From a virus: a stretch of 26,803 nucleotides of DNA. This document shows, piece by piece, positions 2,141 through 18,076 of the stretch. Where the stretch lies: the IMG/VR virus record IMGVR_UViG_3300028800_000279, positions 1 through 26,803 of that record; one strand, 5' to 3'. Made by a program: the position numbers and the translations under genes. The notes beneath the pieces are model-generated. The model was not told where the DNA came from. It did not search any database and was given only the letters and a program-made list of their open reading frames with translations. Every line of letters starts with the position of its first letter. Positions within the stretch are counted from its first letter, which is position 1.

Positions 2141-4006
2141 ATGACAGTGCTCACCATTCCAGTAATGGGGCCCGACGGGCAACCGGCGAAGAATCCGCAG
2201 ATTCTCGCCCAGTTGACTGACTTCACGGGCATTCCGGTGTTTGCCGGAACACAGAACTCGGTACCAACTGAGATGTTTGTTTCCACTTCCAACTCCCAGA
2301 TAGGGGTCCTTCAGATATCCCTGCCGGGCAATGACACCATCGATTGCGGTGGTTCGGCAAACACCACCTGGACGTTAAGCGCGTACTGGGCCCCGGGCAA
2401 GTTGAGTTGGTCGCACAAGTATTACATCACCGGTTCTACGTGGAACTTCATCACCGCGACTCCGATCGCAGTGTCGCCTACAGGAAACCTGATTGCGCTG
2501 GCACCGCCCCCGGCGGCCTTGATGTTGAACTCTCCGGACGATCAGACTCTGGTGGTTGCTCCAGGAAAGGAATTGGATCTTCAGGGCAACGTGTTGATCA
2601 ACGGCACGTCTCCGGTTCCGGAGACTCTGACGATCAACGGGAAACCGCTTTCCGCTCCAGTGACACTGGCAGCTGTGGATGTCGGTCTCGGCCAGGTAGA
2701 CAACACTCCGGACGCCAGTAAACCGATCAGCGCCGCGCAACAAGCGGCACTCGACGGAAAGCAGGCGAGTGGAGATTACGCACTTGCGGAAAGTCTGGCT
2801 CCGGTCGCAACTAGCGGTTCCTATGAAGATCTGACGGGAAAACCAACACTGGGCACGGCAGCCGCTCAGCCGATCGAGACATTTGATGCTGCCGGATCAG
2901 CCTCCGCCGCCGCGGCCGCTGTTCAGGCGAACTTGGCCGCCGAGATCGCGCGCGCACAGGCCGCAGAGGCCCTCAAGGCAAACACATCGTCGCTTGGTAC
3001 GGTTGCAAGTCACGCGGTTACGGAGTTCGATGCCGCGGGAGCTGCAGCAGCGGAAGGTACGCGGGCTCAAGAGGCTGAAACAACCCTTGCGGCTAGTGTG
3101 AGCGCCGAGACCTCGCGGGCGGAAGCAGCGGAAGCCACCAAGGCGGACAAATCGTCACTGGCGCCGGTCGCCACCTCTGGTGACTACGGCGATCTGACCA
3201 ACAAGCCAACCATACCGAATACCCCCGCTCAGGTTGGACTGCCCAATGTAACGAACGACGCCCAGGTCAAACGCACAGAGATGGGCGCCGGTGGCGGAGT
3301 TGCCACATTAGACAGCACCGCGCACGTACCGATGTCTCAGATCCCTGCTTCCCTTGCGGGAGCTCTTGTGTACGCCGGTCTGTGGAATGCGGTTACGAAC
3401 ACACCAACACTTGCAAACGGGTCTGGCTACCAGGGCACTTGCTACAAAGTCAGTGCTGCCGGCTCGACCACGATCGACGGCAACACCGACTGGCATGTCG
3501 GTGATTGGATCATCTTCGATGGCGCGCAGTGGGACAAGTTGGACAATTATGAAGCTGTCTCGACTGTGGCCGGCAAAGTTGGTGCGGTTGTTCTCACCGA
3601 GGCAGACATCGCCAATCTGACCAGTGATCTGGCGAGCAAAGCGAACATCACGTCGTTAGCTCCAGTCGCGACATCCGGCGCGTACAGCGATCTTTCCGGT
3701 AAGCCAACGATTCCCGTAGTTGGCACTGCCGCAGCTCAACCAATCGAGGCGTTTGATGCCGCGGGATCGGCCGCCGCTGTGCAGACGAATCTGACCAGCG
3801 AGGTTGCAAGGGCGGAAGCCGCAGAAACTCTCAAGGCAAACATATCGTCGCTGGCGCCTGTTGCCACTTCCGGCAACTACAGCGACTTGTTGAATCCGCC
3901 GGTGATTCCCGCCGCGCCGGTCGTAGGCAACACTCCAGGAACCGTAGCCGCGGGCAACGATCCACGCTTCCAGAACGCTTATGTCTTCGCAGTGACTCTA
4001 GGATAA
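2141..4006 (+). CDS. Tail-fibre-like protein built from diverged repeats
   Basis: A 621-aa protein. The longer frame begins at a TTG (2129), but the ATG at 2141 gives a more natural start with a GGAA a few bases upstream. The N-terminal about 170 residues are beta-rich and may anchor to the virion. From about residue 218 the motif SLAPVATSGxYxDL recurs four times (near 218, 339, 505 and 570), each followed by a KPT-like or PP turn. Ala-rich coiled-coil segments such as EIARAQAAEALKAN lie between. Other fibre-type motifs are VGLGQVDNTPDASKP, VGLPNVTNDAQ and a WHVGDWIIFDGAQWDKL segment near 450. These are known from trimeric phage fibres. The C-terminus (GTVAAGNDPRF) is also fibre-like. The likely role is host recognition, with the receptor unknown. 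No chaperone-type C-terminal domain is evident. Confidence 0.85.
   Translation: MTVLTIPVMGPDGQPAKNPQILAQLTDFTGIPVFAGTQNSVPTEMFVSTSNSQIGVLQISLPGNDTIDCGGSANTTWTLSAYWAPGKLSWSHKYYITGSTWNFITATPIAVSPTGNLIALAPPPAALMLNSPDDQTLVVAPGKELDLQGNVLINGTSPVPETLTINGKPLSAPVTLAAVDVGLGQVDNTPDASKPISAAQQAALDGKQASGDYALAESLAPVATSGSYEDLTGKPTLGTAAAQPIETFDAAGSASAAAAAVQANLAAEIARAQAAEALKANTSSLGTVASHAVTEFDAAGAAAAEGTRAQEAETTLAASVSAETSRAEAAEATKADKSSLAPVATSGDYGDLTNKPTIPNTPAQVGLPNVTNDAQVKRTEMGAGGGVATLDSTAHVPMSQIPASLAGALVYAGLWNAVTNTPTLANGSGYQGTCYKVSAAGSTTIDGNTDWHVGDWIIFDGAQWDKLDNYEAVSTVAGKVGAVVLTEADIANLTSDLASKANITSLAPVATSGAYSDLSGKPTIPVVGTAAAQPIEAFDAAGSAAAVQTNLTSEVARAEAAETLKANISSLAPVATSGNYSDLLNPPVIPAAPVVGNTPGTVAAGNDPRFQNAYVFAVTLG
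2792..3908 (+). repeat. Four diverged repeat units inside the tail-fibre gene
   Basis: Four copies of a unit encoding SLAPVATSGxYxDLxxxP start at about 2792, 3155, 3653 and 3848. Protein identity is high but the DNA copies differ at many synonymous positions, so they are old duplications under protein-level selection. Units 1 and 3 are also followed by the shared segment GTAAAQPIExFDAAGSA. Confidence 0.85.
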
Positions 4007-4008
4007 TC

Positions 4009-5214
4009 ATGAAACTTCTCGTCGGTACCGACATCGGGATGTACCAGTTCGCTCCGGGCGCGCCTGGCGCCGGCACGATCACGATCACCGGAATGCCTCC
4101 GATTGCCCTGGAGGACGTTCTGCTGGTGATCGACGCCACGCAGGGCGTGATCGTCTATAACCCATCCGTTCCCAACAGCAACGGGACCATCAGTTACAAC
4201 GGAACCCTGGCCGCGAACGTTCTCACCCTGGACAGCGACACTTCGGCTCTCGGCATCTCCGACAACCTGCAAATCTGGGTCAATCTCGCCATCGACCCCG
4301 CAGACACGATTCCGACCTCCATCACTCCTGCCATCTCCGGGAAACAACCGGCAGCTGTCGGGCTGCCGGTGACACTGGTCAATGAACAGATCAACGATCT
4401 CCAGGGTCCGACAGTTTCGCTGTACAACCCACCTATTGGTGCTTTACTGGCATTCCAGGATTGTCTTCAGTACCGCTCGGCGGCAGTGCAGGTTGATGTC
4501 TCGGCTGGATTGACCGCAGGGACAATCCAACTTGAAGGAAGCAATGGTTTGGATTCGGCCGATAGCTGGTGTCCGTTGTTGTTCTTGGATGCCACAAACA
4601 CTACGGCTTCTGCTGTTACGACCACCAACCTTTCTGCGAGTACCCGCAGGTATTTCCTGGTCGCCACATCATTCCGGTATTTCAGAGTACGGGTAACCGT
4701 AGCTGTTACGGGAGGCGCAACGGTATCTTGTTCTTCAGTGTATCGGATGACTCCGTTGTCTTTTCCGGTGTCGCAAGGGATGGCTATAAATACATCTTTG
4801 CTTGGCGGAACTGCGGTTGTTACCGGGGGTGTGTCTGGTATTCAGGCTGTCGGTGGCAACATTGCCCCCGGCGCGGCGCCGACCTCTTATCCATTGCCAA
4901 TCGGCGGCGTGGACTACGGTGGTCTCACTCGCAGAGTTTTAACTGACTCACAGGGCCATCAGATTGCCATAGGTCCTGACCCTTCTAGGGCTGCCAGCTT
5001 ACCTCCTCTTTATGGCATCGGTGCTGACGATCTGCACGGTCGAATGAATCCAGCAGAGGCGTTGGAGTTGATCTTGGGAGAACTCCGCGCGATTGCCTAT
5101 TACATGCATGAGCTGCCGCTTGTGCTCAACCAACCAAACGGCCAATTCGGGAATGATACCGCTGTCGATTTCGTGAATACGGCTGACTACAACAAGAACA
5201 TCCAGGGAGAGTAA
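4009..5214 (+). CDS. Probable virion/tail-associated protein, unknown function
   Basis: A 401-aa protein starting directly after the fibre gene in the junction TAATCATG, so probably translationally coupled. It is beta-rich with many Thr, Val and Gly. A middle segment (about 155-245) reads like a beta-sandwich: VDVSAGLTAGTIQLEGS, then SWCPLLFLDAT, then RYFRVRVTVAV. The C-terminal about 60 residues look helical (AEALELILGELRAIAYYMHEL). The gene between about 4560 and 4950 is visibly richer in A/T at third positions than its neighbours, hinting at a different origin or rapid divergence. Position suggests a fibre-associated or baseplate protein. No named family recognised. Confidence 0.75.
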   Translation: MKLLVGTDIGMYQFAPGAPGAGTITITGMPPIALEDVLLVIDATQGVIVYNPSVPNSNGTISYNGTLAANVLTLDSDTSALGISDNLQIWVNLAIDPADTIPTSITPAISGKQPAAVGLPVTLVNEQINDLQGPTVSLYNPPIGALLAFQDCLQYRSAAVQVDVSAGLTAGTIQLEGSNGLDSADSWCPLLFLDATNTTASAVTTTNLSASTRRYFLVATSFRYFRVRVTVAVTGGATVSCSSVYRMTPLSFPVSQGMAINTSLLGGTAVVTGGVSGIQAVGGNIAPGAAPTSYPLPIGGVDYGGLTRRVLTDSQGHQIAIGPDPSRAASLPPLYGIGADDLHGRMNPAEALELILGELRAIAYYMHELPLVLNQPNGQFGNDTAVDFVNTADYNKNIQGE

Positions 5215-12622: not shown

Positions 12623-15172
12623 ATGCCTTGGTTGAAGATGCACGACCTCCTGACGCTGCGTCCGCGCGAGGTCGAAAACAAGAAGTACCTGTTTGAGTGC
12701 AAGGACTCGAAGTCCGAGTCCGGGCACAGTCTTCTTGTGCACGCTTCCGCTACCCACTCCGGGATTGTCAACGGGAACATGAAGTTCTACCGTCCGGACC
12801 GCATGCAGAAGGGCACGGCTTCCTGGTTGCCGGCGAATTCATACGCCAAGCCAGTGTTGATCATGCACGACGAAGAGGGCCAGGTCATCGGCCGCATTCG
12901 TTCCGCCGACTATGTTGACCTGAGTTGGAAGTGGGCCCAAGAGTATCCGTCCGTCAAGGACATGGCGTTCTACAACCGCGATTCAAGGTCCAAGTGGAAC
13001 CTCTTCAAGTCCTGCGACTGGATCGTCGAGAATCTGCAGCCGATGGAAGACTTCGTCGGTCTGGGTTACATCGACCTTGGTTTCCAGATCACTGATCCGG
13101 ATTCCATCCGCAAGTTCCTGAACGATGAATACCTGACGGTATCAACCGGGTCGCGCACCAACTCCGCTGTCTGCTCGATCTGCCACACCGATTGGGCGCA
13201 CGACGAGCCCTGCGAACACAAACTGGGCAAGCTCTACGACAAGAAGCGCGCTTACTTTATCACCGGTGACTTGAAGTACGACGAGCTCAGCGCAGTCAAT
13301 TTCCCGGCCGACAAAGCAGCCCTGGTCAACAGCAAAGAGTTGAAGGATTCGCTCGACAGGATCTTCTTCCTCGGCCTGTCCACCAAACAGCAGGATCGTC
13401 TGGTCGAGGCTGGCCTCAAGCTGACTGACTCGCTCTACCTATCGGACGTTACTCCAGTCTACGAGGATGAAATGGTTATTGATTTCAATGATGTTGCGGT
13501 TCTCGACAAGGTGACCGCCGATTTGGATTCTCCCGAACTGAACCGCGATCGCGCGCTTGAAATCCGTCAGTCACTCGACAGCTGGCATCCGGAAGTCGAA
13601 GAGATGAAGTCCCGGCGCCGGTCGATCATGTCGACGGTTAACGCCCGGATCAAGAACAAGAAGTGGGATTCGACGGTCCCGGTCGAGAACAAGGAAGCCG
13701 CCGCCGAGATCGAAGTCCTTCTGCAGCAGGAAGACAAGAGCAAGACCCCGAAGAGCTTCTTCATGTGTTCCGCCTGTCAGTCGCCGGCCGACAAGTGCAA
13801 GTGCGGCAAAGACGCGGCGAAGTGCAAGGGTTGCGGCAAGGGCAAGGAAGATTGCACCTGTAAGGAAGCGTCCAAAGACGCCGAGAACCAGGATGCCAAG
13901 AGTTGCAAGAAGTGCGGCAAAGCCGAGTGCATCTGCTCTCCCAAAGAGAAGGAAAGCAAGGATGCCGCGGGCGAGTGCCCGGATGAGACCTGCGAGAACT
14001 GGGATGCAGTCCAGTTGACGGCTGAAGAGACGGAATACTTCGCCGATGCCGACGGTCTCTACGAAGAGATGTGCGTCGAGTTGGACGCCGCGGTCACCGC
14101 CGGCGAACTGAAGGACTCGATTGTGAAGGACGCGAAGTTGTCCAGCGAGAAGCGCAACAAGCTCTCGAAGGGCACCTTCTGCGGACCCAACCGGTCGTTC
14201 CCGGTTCCCGATTGCGCCCACGTCACCGCCGCGCGCCGCCTGATCGGCCGCGCCAAAGCCAGCCAGGCTACGAAAGACAAGATCTCCGCGTGTGTGTCGC
14301 GCAAGGCCGGTGCTCTCGGTTGCGGTAAAGACGGCAACTGCGCGCTTCCCGCGGTCGGCGCCACCCAGAACACCGACGCCGCAGTCAAGATCGACGACGA
14401 GCTGCAGAAGATGTTCGATGCAGCCATGACGATGACCGACGCCGAAGGCAAGAAGGCCGAAACCAGTGAGGAGGCCAAAGCGGCCCTGACTCACTACGAC
14501 GGTCTCCACAAGATCTACATGGGCGCCGAGAAAGACGCCAGCCTGCGCTATCGCATGCGCGATCTGCATGGTGCGGTAGGAGATCACTGGGGCACGCTGA
14601 ACAGCGTGAATTGGGCCAAGGAGTATCTGGGCGCCCATTCCAAGGATTCCCTGGTCATTTCCAAGGTCGAGTTGGCAGACAAGGAAACTGCCCTCAACGA
14701 CCTGGTCACCGAGAAGGACTCGCTGACCAAGCAAGTGACCGCAGTCAACGGCAAGGCTTTCGCGATGTTGTCCGAAGCCAAGCGCCACCTGGCGACCACG
14801 ATCGTGGTCTTCAAAGCCCTCAAGGGCCAGGACGGATTCAAGGATCTCAACGCCGAGCAGGCGGAGACGAAGATCGCCGAGTTTGCCAAGCGTCACATTA
14901 CCTCGCTGAAGGATACCGTCAGCGATCTGCTTCAGGACCTGCAGTGGGTTGCGCCCGCTGCGCACCAGGACGCAAAGACCGACGAGTCTGGGGTCAAGGT
15001 GAACGACAACGCGCAGGTGGACGAGTCGGATGCCGTCAACAAAGACGGCGCTTCCAAAGCGGCACAGACCCAGCAGGACCAGGCATTGATTCGCCGCAAG
15101 CTCGCCCTTATGAGCCCCCAAGAACAGGGGATCTTCCTCGCCGATCTTCGTTTCGGCCGGACTGCAAAGTAA
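12623..15172 (+). CDS. Prohead protease fused to zinc-knuckle and scaffold-like regions
   Basis: An 849-aa head-maturation protein. Residues about 35-240 look like a serine prohead protease: NGNMKFYRPDRM, then LIMHDEEGQVIGRI (H82 is the likely catalytic His), VSTGSRT (S174 the likely nucleophile) and SAVNFPADKAA with a possible third catalytic residue. A C-x2-C-x9-C-x-H cluster lies at 184-199. Residues 382-438 hold three tandem C-x2-C-x(4-6)-C-x-C units, probably zinc-binding. Residues about 517-570 form a conserved-type module (FCGPNRSFPVPDCAH). From about 675 to 775 are long helices with coiled-coil character, followed by a charged tail and a short terminal helix (LALMSPQEQGIFLADL), as expected of a scaffold. 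The position directly before head structural genes supports this. Self-cleavage into protease and scaffold is likely but unproven. No clear ribosome binding site precedes ATG 12623. Confidence 0.88.
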   Translation: MPWLKMHDLLTLRPREVENKKYLFECKDSKSESGHSLLVHASATHSGIVNGNMKFYRPDRMQKGTASWLPANSYAKPVLIMHDEEGQVIGRIRSADYVDLSWKWAQEYPSVKDMAFYNRDSRSKWNLFKSCDWIVENLQPMEDFVGLGYIDLGFQITDPDSIRKFLNDEYLTVSTGSRTNSAVCSICHTDWAHDEPCEHKLGKLYDKKRAYFITGDLKYDELSAVNFPADKAALVNSKELKDSLDRIFFLGLSTKQQDRLVEAGLKLTDSLYLSDVTPVYEDEMVIDFNDVAVLDKVTADLDSPELNRDRALEIRQSLDSWHPEVEEMKSRRRSIMSTVNARIKNKKWDSTVPVENKEAAAEIEVLLQQEDKSKTPKSFFMCSACQSPADKCKCGKDAAKCKGCGKGKEDCTCKEASKDAENQDAKSCKKCGKAECICSPKEKESKDAAGECPDETCENWDAVQLTAEETEYFADADGLYEEMCVELDAAVTAGELKDSIVKDAKLSSEKRNKLSKGTFCGPNRSFPVPDCAHVTAARRLIGRAKASQATKDKISACVSRKAGALGCGKDGNCALPAVGATQNTDAAVKIDDELQKMFDAAMTMTDAEGKKAETSEEAKAALTHYDGLHKIYMGAEKDASLRYRMRDLHGAVGDHWGTLNSVNWAKEYLGAHSKDSLVISKVELADKETALNDLVTEKDSLTKQVTAVNGKAFAMLSEAKRHLATTIVVFKALKGQDGFKDLNAEQAETKIAEFAKRHITSLKDTVSDLLQDLQWVAPAAHQDAKTDESGVKVNDNAQVDESDAVNKDGASKAAQTQQDQALIRRKLALMSPQEQGIFLADLRFGRTAK

Positions 15173-15216: not shown

Positions 15217-16371
15217 GTGCCTTTCGATCAGAATAACCAGTTCACCGGCCGGCTGTATGGCCAGGACCGTATGGGCCACACCACTCCGGATCTGGAAGTC
15301 AGCGACATCTACCATCCGTGGCTGCCCTGCGGCTATCCGGCTCCTTACCTGCCTTCTCTCCGCATGGACCAGGGTCATCCGAAACTGGCCAACGTTGTGG
15401 TCAGCTCGCAGATGGTTCTCGGTCAGGACAAGAGCGGCGCCCTGGTTCCCGCAGGCTACATGTGCGGCGACACCGGCGCGAGCGCGGGAGGAGCACACGC
15501 CACTGGCGTGGGTTACCAGGTCATCATCTACAAGGCCGAAGATGTGGGTTTCACGTTCAACCCGCAGACCAACGCCTACGTGGCCCAGGCCGGCGAGTAC
15601 GTTGTGCTGGCAGCCCCGACTGATGCCGCGGCTAGCGACGTCGTGACCGTTCCCGACGGCCGTTCCGTCGTGATCAAGGCTGGCGACATCACCTTCGCGC
15701 ACGCCTGCACTCTGTTCCCGAAGGGCGTAGTCAAGCCTATCGGCATCGCGTTGCATAACATCCTCCAGTACATCGGTGGCGTGCAGGTGTCTTCGACAAC
15801 CGGAGGCATTCTCTACACCCTCGATGGCGTGGTTCCCACCGGCTTCGTGGTGATGAACTACATGCACGAGATGGCGACCGCCATCCAGACGCAGTATGTC
15901 ATCCGCGTGCCCTGGATCGGCGCAACCGAGACCACCCTCACGACTCTCGCCACGGGCGACGGCGTGACCGGTTTTGCCCAGGGTTATGGCCGCAGTTTCA
16001 CCCACGCAGTCGGCGCCATCAACATCGGCGACGGTGTGGTTGCTTCGACAGCATGCCCAGGCTGCTACGGTCCGTTCGACTCGACCAAGAACAGCGTCAC
16101 CGACTTCGTCGGCCGCGTGATCGGCGTGTTGAACATGGTCAACCGGATCGGCTTCACCAGCCGCATCAAGACCCTGTGGGATCCGTCCCGCATGGTTGGC
16201 CCGACCAAGGATCCGAATCCTGCCAGCATCATGATGGGCGGCTCCGCTACTGGCGGCATGCCCTACGACATTAACCTGACGACCGATGGCGTCTACAAGC
16301 TGGCCAAGATGCAGCAGAAGACCGTCCATCCCGAGTACGGAACCTACGTCCTGGTGGAAATCAACCTGTAA
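15217..16371 (+). CDS. Probable abundant virion protein (decoration or minor capsid candidate)
   Basis: A 384-aa protein starting at GTG with AGGAGA seven bases upstream. The sequence is beta-rich: a region around residues 60-190 has the alternating pattern typical of decoration or cement proteins (SSQMVLGQDKSGALVPAG, then FPKGVVKPIGIAL). The second half includes AIQTQYVIRVPWIG and a Gly-rich stretch. It lies between the protease/scaffold gene and the capsid gene, where head decoration proteins are often encoded, and is flanked by stem-loops on both sides. The HK97-type capsid features are in the next large gene, so this is probably a second major head component. A tail-tube role is not excluded. 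I recognise no family with certainty. Confidence 0.75.
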   Translation: MPFDQNNQFTGRLYGQDRMGHTTPDLEVSDIYHPWLPCGYPAPYLPSLRMDQGHPKLANVVVSSQMVLGQDKSGALVPAGYMCGDTGASAGGAHATGVGYQVIIYKAEDVGFTFNPQTNAYVAQAGEYVVLAAPTDAAASDVVTVPDGRSVVIKAGDITFAHACTLFPKGVVKPIGIALHNILQYIGGVQVSSTTGGILYTLDGVVPTGFVVMNYMHEMATAIQTQYVIRVPWIGATETTLTTLATGDGVTGFAQGYGRSFTHAVGAINIGDGVVASTACPGCYGPFDSTKNSVTDFVGRVIGVLNMVNRIGFTSRIKTLWDPSRMVGPTKDPNPASIMMGGSATGGMPYDINLTTDGVYKLAKMQQKTVHPEYGTYVLVEINL

Positions 16372-16373
16372 AC

Positions 16374-16410
16374 CCGTGCGGGTGGCGGCGCCAGTCGCCA
16401 CCCAACACGG
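16374..16410 (+). promoter_or_regulatory. Two-part stem-loop between the head genes
   Basis: An inner 8-bp stem, GGGTGGCG (16380-16387) with CGCCACCC (16396-16403), closes an 8-nt loop. An outer 5-bp helix, CCGTG (16374-16378) with CACGG (16406-16410), continues it across a small internal loop. It starts two bases after the stop of the 384-aa gene and ends just before the Com-like gene's ribosome binding site. It lacks a T-tract. Confidence 0.65.
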
Positions 16411-16412
16411 AC

Positions 16413-16650
16413 GATTAGGTGGGTGCTTCTGATGGTGCAAATCGTAATCACGAAAGGCCAGGCTGTGATCAAGCCCGAGGGATTGCGATGCCGTGCTCCG
16501 CGAGAAGGCGCTCCACGAGGTACGTGTAACAAGCTAGTTGTCAAGCCCAACTCCGCGGGCCGCATTGAAGGCAACTTCGTCTGTCCAGATCGCCGGTGCC
16601 GTCAAGAGATTGAAGTCAGCACCGTCACCAGATCCTAGATCCACCTAATT
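16413..16650 (+). promoter_or_regulatory. Complementary arms flanking the Com-like gene
   Basis: Bases 16413-16424 (GATTAGGTGGGT) can pair with 16639-16650 (ATCCACCTAATT) over 12 contiguous positions, nine Watson-Crick in the core with G-U near or at each end. The left arm is the gene's ribosome binding site and the right arm starts directly after its stop codon. In mRNA this would close a loop around the whole gene and hide its start. Confidence 0.4.
16432..16638 (+). CDS. Com-like zinc-finger protein (predicted RNA-binding regulator)
   Basis: A 68-aa basic protein with two cysteine pairs, LRC-x11-CNKL and VCPDRRCRQEIE, which matches the layout of the Mu Com family (an RNA-binding zinc protein that activates translation of mom in phage Mu). 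The first knuckle is longer than in Mu Com, where both pairs are C-x2-C; here they are C-x11-C and C-x4-C. ATG 16432 is chosen because AGGTGGG lies eight bases upstream; a GTG at 16423 would start inside that site. No mom-like gene is visible. The position between two head genes, next to strong RNA hairpins, fits a local translational regulator. That target is inferred. Confidence 0.65.
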   Translation: MVQIVITKGQAVIKPEGLRCRAPREGAPRGTCNKLVVKPNSAGRIEGNFVCPDRRCRQEIEVSTVTRS

Positions 16651-16700
16651 CATTTCCGAAGTCCACACCAGGACTCGTATACCCCAGGAGGGTTAACTCC

Positions 16701-18026
16701 ATGTCCGTCAAGTCCAAGAAGGTCAAGCTGAACGAGGAAGAGTGGAAGCAGCTGGACCGCCTCACCACCGTCTTCAACAGCGGCGGCTATGACCCAACCA
16801 GCGGCGATTTCATGGACATGAAGGACGCGCTCGATGTTCAGAACGCGGCTTTCATGATTCCGCGCGCCATGACGCAGATTGTCCAGGAAGGCATCGAGCC
16901 CCTGCTGATCGGCACCAGCCTATTGCAGCGCATCGAATTCCAGCCTGGCATGCAGACTGTGTTTCCGATGGTCGAGCCCCTTCGCGCAGAAGAGGCCGGC
17001 GATGGCATGGATCTGCCCGTGTACAACATCAACATCGGCGGCGCCCAGTCGTTCGGCGTGACCGTCAAGAGACACGGTCTCCGTCTGAAGATTGCCAAGC
17101 GCTTCATCGACGAGAGCTCGTACCCGTGGGTCAACTTCTGGCTACGGCTTGCTGGCAACGCCCTCGCGCGCCACAAGGAAGAGTACATCTTCGACTTCAT
17201 CACCCGACTCGGCACGGTTGTCTTCGACAACTCGACCGCCGCGCGTCTGACCAATGCCCCGGTACAGCCCATCAAGGGTGTCACCACCGGTCGCAACTGG
17301 AAAGGCGTGTTGAACGGGTCCATGACAGTTGACGACGTCTTCGACATGTATGCGGCTGTTCTGCTCAACGGCTTCGTGCCCGACACCCTGCTGGTCCATC
17401 CGATGGCATGGTTAATGTGGGTAAAGGATCCGGTGATGAGGGAGTTCGCGATCCAGGCGGGCGGCGGAAGCTTCTTCGCCAACTTCACCGGCAACCCAGC
17501 CGTGTTGGGCAACAAGTTCTACAACAACGGCGGCTTGGGCGTAGGCCAAGGCCAGACGGGTCAGTATTCCGGCGGCAAGTTGACCGGTGGCGAAGTCAGT
17601 TCGCCCGAGGCCGGCAACTACCAGAACATGACCTCGGCCCCGCAGCTGCCGAACTACCTGGGACTGCCCTTCCGCATCCTGGTCAGCCCGTTCGTCAACT
17701 TCGACCCCGAGAACCGGGTAACCGACATCATGATGTTCAACAGCCGTAACCTCGGCGCCCTGATCGTGGACGAAGATCCCCATGTGAAGAGCTGGGAAGA
17801 CGGCCAGTACAACATCCAGAACATGTCGATCGAAGAGACCTACGGCTTCGGCATCCTCAACGAAGGCCAGGCCATCGCGGTCGCCAAGAACGTGAAGATC
17901 CGTCCGAACGAGTTTGTCATGCCGGCTCGCAGCGTGTTCAACCTCTCCGAGGCCAACAGCACCTTCACCGACCTGAGCTCCGCGGCGATCTTCGACGCGA
18001 CCACCCCGATTCCCGTCAACAACTAA
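16701..18026 (+). CDS. Major capsid protein (HK97-fold type)
   Basis: A 441-aa protein with the best ribosome binding site in the window: AGGAGGG eight bases before the ATG. It has a helical, charged N-arm (residues about 1-55), then IPRAMTQIVQEGIEPLLIGTSLL and RIEFQPGMQTVFPMVEPL. These are typical of large-phage HK97-fold capsid proteins at the entry to the fold. A PDTLLVHPMAWLMW segment sits near residue 230, a Gly/Asn-rich flexible stretch near 255-315, and beta-rich C-terminal strands (LPFRILVSPFVNF, then ALIVDEDPHVKSW). Size, position after protease/scaffold and strong translation signal all support the call. A short N-terminal arm could be cleaved by the upstream protease; no cut site was identified. 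Confidence 0.88.
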   Translation: MSVKSKKVKLNEEEWKQLDRLTTVFNSGGYDPTSGDFMDMKDALDVQNAAFMIPRAMTQIVQEGIEPLLIGTSLLQRIEFQPGMQTVFPMVEPLRAEEAGDGMDLPVYNINIGGAQSFGVTVKRHGLRLKIAKRFIDESSYPWVNFWLRLAGNALARHKEEYIFDFITRLGTVVFDNSTAARLTNAPVQPIKGVTTGRNWKGVLNGSMTVDDVFDMYAAVLLNGFVPDTLLVHPMAWLMWVKDPVMREFAIQAGGGSFFANFTGNPAVLGNKFYNNGGLGVGQGQTGQYSGGKLTGGEVSSPEAGNYQNMTSAPQLPNYLGLPFRILVSPFVNFDPENRVTDIMMFNSRNLGALIVDEDPHVKSWEDGQYNIQNMSIEETYGFGILNEGQAIAVAKNVKIRPNEFVMPARSVFNLSEANSTFTDLSSAAIFDATTPIPVNN

Positions 18027-18048: not shown

Positions 18049-18076
18049 CGATGGCGGCGGGCAACCGCCGCCATCG
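18049..18076 (+). terminator. Strong 12-bp GCAA-loop hairpin after the capsid gene
   Basis: CGATGGCGGCGG (18049-18060) pairs perfectly over 12 bp with CCGCCGCCATCG (18065-18076), closed by a stable GNRA-type tetraloop (GCAA). It begins 22 bases past the stop codon. No T-tract follows, so it could be a factor-assisted terminator, a transcript-end stabiliser or a processing site. Confidence 0.7.

Follow-up and report, generated by a model that had tools for sequence, protein, structure and literature searches.

The major capsid protein (MCP) gene of a 26.8-kb IMG/VR virus contig, analysed here over its whole stretch of 26,803 nucleotides (the window), is preceded by a leader with two hairpins (HP1 and HP2), and the second of them, which includes the Shine-Dalgarno (SD) sequence of the gene, covaries between the lineages of its clade of large uncultured phages. 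Upstream of this leader lies a gene for a small basic zinc-ribbon protein that resembles Com of phage Mu. The translation of the capsid gene may be gated by the hairpin, with the zinc-ribbon protein as a trans-acting regulator of the leader, and this is the reading that we favour, albeit with rather less than even confidence. The first-pass annotation had suggested control of capsid translation without including the leader; this part of it now gains support from the covarying two-hairpin element downstream of the com-like gene.

The small zinc-protein gene that had been placed between the 384-aa gene and the capsid gene is present as an intact reading frame with the cysteine pattern of a zinc ribbon (see the table). 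Its alternative start is a GTG at 16423 with the same stop at 16638, while the ATG at 16432, which AGGTGG precedes by nine bases, agrees better with the starts of the relatives in the alignment and is preferred. The product of the 384-aa gene had no match in the family searches. Further upstream, at 12623-15172, the window encodes an 849-aa protein that includes a cysteine-rich segment (CSACQSPADKCKCG...) and whose family matches are weak for the greater part of its length.

Table. Features of the com-like gene and MCP region; coordinates are those of the window unless a locus is named.
Feature	Position	Strand	Remarks
384-aa gene, 5' of the com-like gene	15217..16371	+	no family match
Two-part hairpin (5+10 bp), gap between the 384-aa gene and the com-like gene	16374..16410	+	from the fold
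SD of the com-like gene, AGGTGG	16417..16422	+	inside the 5' arm of the first-pass pairing; from the sequence
Com-like zinc-ribbon gene	16432..16638	+	68 aa; Cys20, Cys32, Cys51, Cys56; pI about 10; intact ORF
3' arm of the first-pass pairing	16639..16650	+	pairs with 16413-16424 in the window only; judged a chance match
HP1, AGTCC-ACACCA-GGACT, MCP leader	16660..16675	+	kept in most lineages
HP2, ACCC-CAGGA-GGGT, with MCP SD AGGAGG (16686-16691)	16681..16693	+	covarying
MCP gene	16701..18026	+	phrog_3922 major head protein
Distant com-like gene, L215	3001-3201		
Distant com-like genes, L240	2986-3201 and 3765-4031		
Distant com-like gene, L241	about 3001-3177		

IMG/VR was searched with the MCP and the com-like protein for related loci, of which several belong to records between 100 and 215 kb long; after duplicate removal, the loci with enough sequence upstream of MCP were counted. 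Of 63 distinct related loci, 60 carry the com-like gene ahead of MCP, and nine records between 99 and 215 kb in length each have a single copy of it. Where the contig of a relative extends far enough, a homologue of the 384-aa gene almost always stands before the com-like gene in turn. Three loci do not have it: L167, the same locus as L242, where com is lost or absent and is also missing elsewhere in the 30.5-kb record; L312, a more distant relative whose MCP is 43% identical; and L177, which matches the MCP in part and, as a contig in an Acidobacteria MAG, gives a weak hint of the host. No annotated gene occupies the corresponding gap in the named distant phages Moorella MTATph1, Acinetobacter ME3, and Bacillus KLEB27-3, and tblastn with the com-like protein of a relative returned no match in named phages.

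In most lineages the gap between com and MCP contains HP1 and then HP2, with the MCP SD lying partly in the loop and partly in the 3' arm of HP2. A covariance model of the leaders was dropped, since the MAFFT alignments shifted the hairpin arms against each other and the resulting model contained no base pairs, and two permutation tests were used in its place: in the first the segment upstream of the SD was exchanged between lineages, and in the second the 16 bases upstream of the SD of each leader were shuffled. The mean of native HP2 was -3.4 kcal/mol versus -1.82 kcal/mol after swapping, and the native value was reached by none of 5000 swaps and by none of 400 own-composition shuffles (z -5.4), although such counts, here and below, are not strict probabilities since the lineages are related. 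With strong-SD leaders only, 1 of 5000 swaps and 0 of 400 shuffles reached it, and a simpler test counting contiguous pairs was weaker and had the same direction (34 of 10000). The same tests applied to six other gene leaders gave no comparable SD-hairpin signal. The HP2 stem occurs as ACCC/GGGU, as GCCC/GGGC with G-U intermediates, as UGCC/GGCA, and as CGCC/GGCG; its third pair is C-G, G-C, or A-U, and its fourth (outer) pair is A-U, U-A, G-C, C-G, or G-U and so includes all four Watson-Crick pairs. From this comparison of sequences the MCP leader is classed as an SD-hairpin element, that is, a covarying stem that includes the SD and is particular to MCP among the seven genes tested.

HP1 was also better in its native form, with 0 of 5000 swaps and 0 of 40 shuffles as good, where the swap test is favoured by a split chosen on the native sequence while the shuffle test is not. 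The arms of HP1 vary widely between lineages (AGTCC/GGACT, GGTCC/GGACC, GTCC/GGAC, GATC/GATC, GGTT/AACC, and GATT/AATC). Individual HP2s are weak and unexceptional within one genome; among 194 genes scanned in the window and in stretches of two relatives, 23 had an SD hairpin of 3 kcal/mol or more, dinucleotide shuffles of single leaders were mostly not individually significant, and SD pairing probability gave no separation between genes. The HP2 signal is a comparative one, read from the set of lineages and not from single leaders. A scan of the window against Rfam gave no match.

Intergenic gaps in these phages often contain hairpins. In the window a strong 12-bp hairpin without a U tract stands 3' of the MCP stop (18049-18076), and the gap between MCP and the next gene has strong hairpins or unusual structure in 94% of lineages (mean z -3.9); possibly the post-MCP hairpin serves RNA processing or 3'-end protection. 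A strong SD hairpin that looks much like HP2 (GGCCCTAGGAGGGTC) belongs to a putative lipoprotein gene (L188, 18602-19174), which lies a few kb 3' of MCP in a 215-kb relative.

The com-like proteins share the core GLRC-x-APR...C-NKLLVKKN-x2-GQIAG-x-F-x-C-x-RC-x-Q-x-IEV, have eight invariant columns including the four Cys in an alignment of 35 proteins, and are basic throughout the family (pI 9.0-10.2). The first two Cys are 12 apart (C-x11-C), and the second knuckle is C-x4-C in the window clade and C-x2-C in most other relatives. A small all-beta domain was predicted with confidence by AF2 (mean pLDDT 86), for which Foldseek returned no significant match in PDB and BFVD, while a PDB profile search with the protein gave chance-level matches only. 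The window protein had no match in Pfam, PHROGs, and NCBIfam; among 18 relatives 2 matched PF10122 (best E 0.018) and 9 matched phrog_13819 (best E 0.0097), a non-Com zinc ribbon scored as well (Desulfoferrod_N, E 0.0032), and weak matches to RNA polymerase subunit P were also obtained. The hhalign comparison with Com gave a probability of 90-91% over 32 columns with three of the four Cys, a value uncalibrated against other zinc ribbons, and the similarity spans the C-terminal half of the ribbon. The curated family score of PF10122 / gpCom was reached neither by the window protein nor by its relatives. Thus the designation "Com-like" of the first-pass annotation is kept as a suggestive one for a weak profile resemblance that misses all curated cutoffs and is equalled by other zinc ribbons, short of an identification as Com; the weak profile match counts against a trans-regulator.

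Regulation of the MCP leader in trans is nevertheless favoured because the two hairpins together with the Com-like gene reproduce the layout of Mu com/mom. The capsid mRNA would start with the short HP1 followed by the weak HP2 carrying the SD, HP2 would tune or gate ribosome entry, as its covariation suggests, and the basic zinc-ribbon protein would most likely regulate this leader in trans, in the way that Mu Com acts near mom, and thereby set the level or the timing of capsid synthesis; the RNA binding, the target, and the direction of this action we infer alike. Such a role is consistent with a conserved single-copy gene in a fixed position, with the covariation of the leader, and with an SD hairpin particular to MCP.

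Nearly as likely is a leader that acts independently of the zinc protein, through the initiation rate, through accessibility of the site in a weak stem, or as a mark for RNA processing or stability, while the zinc protein is an unrelated, co-transcribed late protein, for example, a head assembly, transcription, or packaging factor. HP2 and com are not strictly linked in these sequences, since an HP2-like SD hairpin persists in L167, which has no com, and several com-bearing lineages (L142, L144, L145, L175, L096, and L097) have little or no HP2. The many other intergenic hairpins of the operon also fit an independent leader, as do the distant com-like homologues of 37-47% identity in other phages (L215, L240 with two copies, and L241), which adjoin genes identified by eye as HNH, ParB-like, and terminase small-subunit-like rather than MCP. 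On the other hand, the position of the com-like gene is linked to MCP almost completely in the clade, and L167 is without HP1, so that HP1 and com are missing together, a single case that counts for linkage between com and the leader. L312 has by inspection neither the HP1 nor the HP2 motif.

It is rather improbable that HP1 is a dyad DNA site, such as a late promoter or operator, on which the zinc ribbon may act as a transcription factor. The arms are indeed short and palindromic (AGTCC/GGACT and GGTCC/GGACC), and zinc ribbons of similar size are found in transcription proteins, in line with the weak subunit P matches; however, the arm sequence differs widely between lineages, a scan of the region that covered sigma-70-like promoters returned none, and the pairing of HP2 includes the SD itself, pointing to RNA.

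Translational coupling, in which ribosomes ending com melt the hairpins and reinitiate at MCP, is more improbable still. It would agree with the 62 nt from the com stop to the MCP ATG in the window and with the same strand and order of both genes throughout the clade. In L027, however, an inserted ORF (4458-4907, HNH-like by eye) separates com from MCP by about 520 nt and both hairpins remain beside MCP, which therefore argues against simple coupling; the gap is also enlarged to about 360 nt in L144/L248 (with an extra ORF in L144), and a ribosome terminating at the com stop of the window would probably be too far away to cover HP2. Another extra ORF, also HNH-like by eye, lies near the com-like gene in L026 (4283-4825).

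By far the least credible is the initial model, in which the com-like protein or its mRNA is autoregulated by pairing of the com ribosome binding site (RBS) with the sequence after its own stop. The complementarity that had been described is present, with 16413-16424 (GATTAGGTGGGT) and 16639-16650 (ATCCACCTAATT) pairing at 12 of 12 positions (10 Watson-Crick and 2 G-U), and is retained in the MFE fold; 9 of 500 shuffles yielded a full 12-pair partner for this RBS, about 2% before multiple testing. However, this DNA often contains helices of at least 12 pairs (31 of 177 contig windows of 329 nt, and 7 of 60 dinucleotide-shuffled versions of the region), and the closest relative, L002 (ATCCATACCTTT), whose protein is 93% identical, lacks the 3' arm, as do others. 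Over 34 lineages the duplex showed no covariation (native -7.94 versus swapped -7.82, with 1914 of 5000 swaps as good), and the com RBS of L002 can still form a strong duplex at a different site, CCCACC inside HP1. The two-part hairpin upstream of com exists and is slightly longer than the 13 bp first ascribed to it; a recognisably similar sequence, with one compensatory change (G-C to A-U), is present in L002 alone, and several other relatives have unrelated hairpins in the same gap. No hairpin over the SD of com itself is conserved, and 396 of 400 own-composition shuffles were as stable or more stable. The self-complementary frame thus fails because its arms are neither conserved nor covarying, and with com leaders free of an RBS-occluding hairpin autoregulation by this route falls as well.

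Hairpins at the SD or the start control translation in phage mRNAs, as does the coat operator hairpin of RNA phages. The MCP leader resembles this class in a hairpin that includes the initiation signal and is kept as structure rather than as sequence, while it differs in that the gated gene would be the MCP of a large dsDNA phage and the trans-acting factor is a candidate. No description of MCP control at the level of translation in large dsDNA phages was found in the open-access literature.

In Mu a short hairpin is followed by the translation-inhibition hairpin of mom, and Com acts on the former (PMC6483171). The Com SELEX motif is CC(N)2-3GAG (PMC6483171); a match of HP2 to it was discounted, since the SD gives GGAGG and its pairing partner gives CC anyway. 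The locus described here is similar to com/mom in a com gene directly upstream of a candidate regulated late gene, here MCP, in a short hairpin followed by one that covers the initiation signal of the downstream gene, and in a small basic zinc-ribbon protein with the CNKLL...C(x)RC core of Mu Com (PF10122; phrog_13819 gpCom). In contrast to Mu, the candidate target is a capsid gene and not DNA modification, the genes do not overlap and the hairpins lie between them, and the protein, whose similarity stays below the curated cutoffs, has C-x11-C / C-x4-C (in most relatives C-x2-C at the second knuckle) instead of C-x2-C / C-x2-C, additional strands at its N terminus, and a C-terminal end without the long tail. 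A Mom relative was not matched in ten records, a weak negative from a search with no positive control, and no overlapping downstream mom or DNA-modification gene was seen, the downstream gene being MCP in clade loci holding both. A Com-type zinc ribbon likewise lies directly before a single gene in the Mu-like and other phages B3 (ORF47-48), Chuche, and Mcat5, although in B3 and Chuche the annotated partners are DNA methylases and the genes overlap.

The candidate pair is compact, consisting of a 68-aa protein and a leader of roughly 35 nt, and its RNA half has strong comparative support. As a whole, the proposal that a Com-type zinc-ribbon RNA-binding regulator is fixed upstream of MCP in large phages and gates translation via a two-hairpin leader is somewhat doubtful. 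To our knowledge, Com-type zinc-ribbon regulators occur only in DNA-modification operons, and, if the proposal is true, the roles of Com-like zinc ribbons extend beyond DNA modification.
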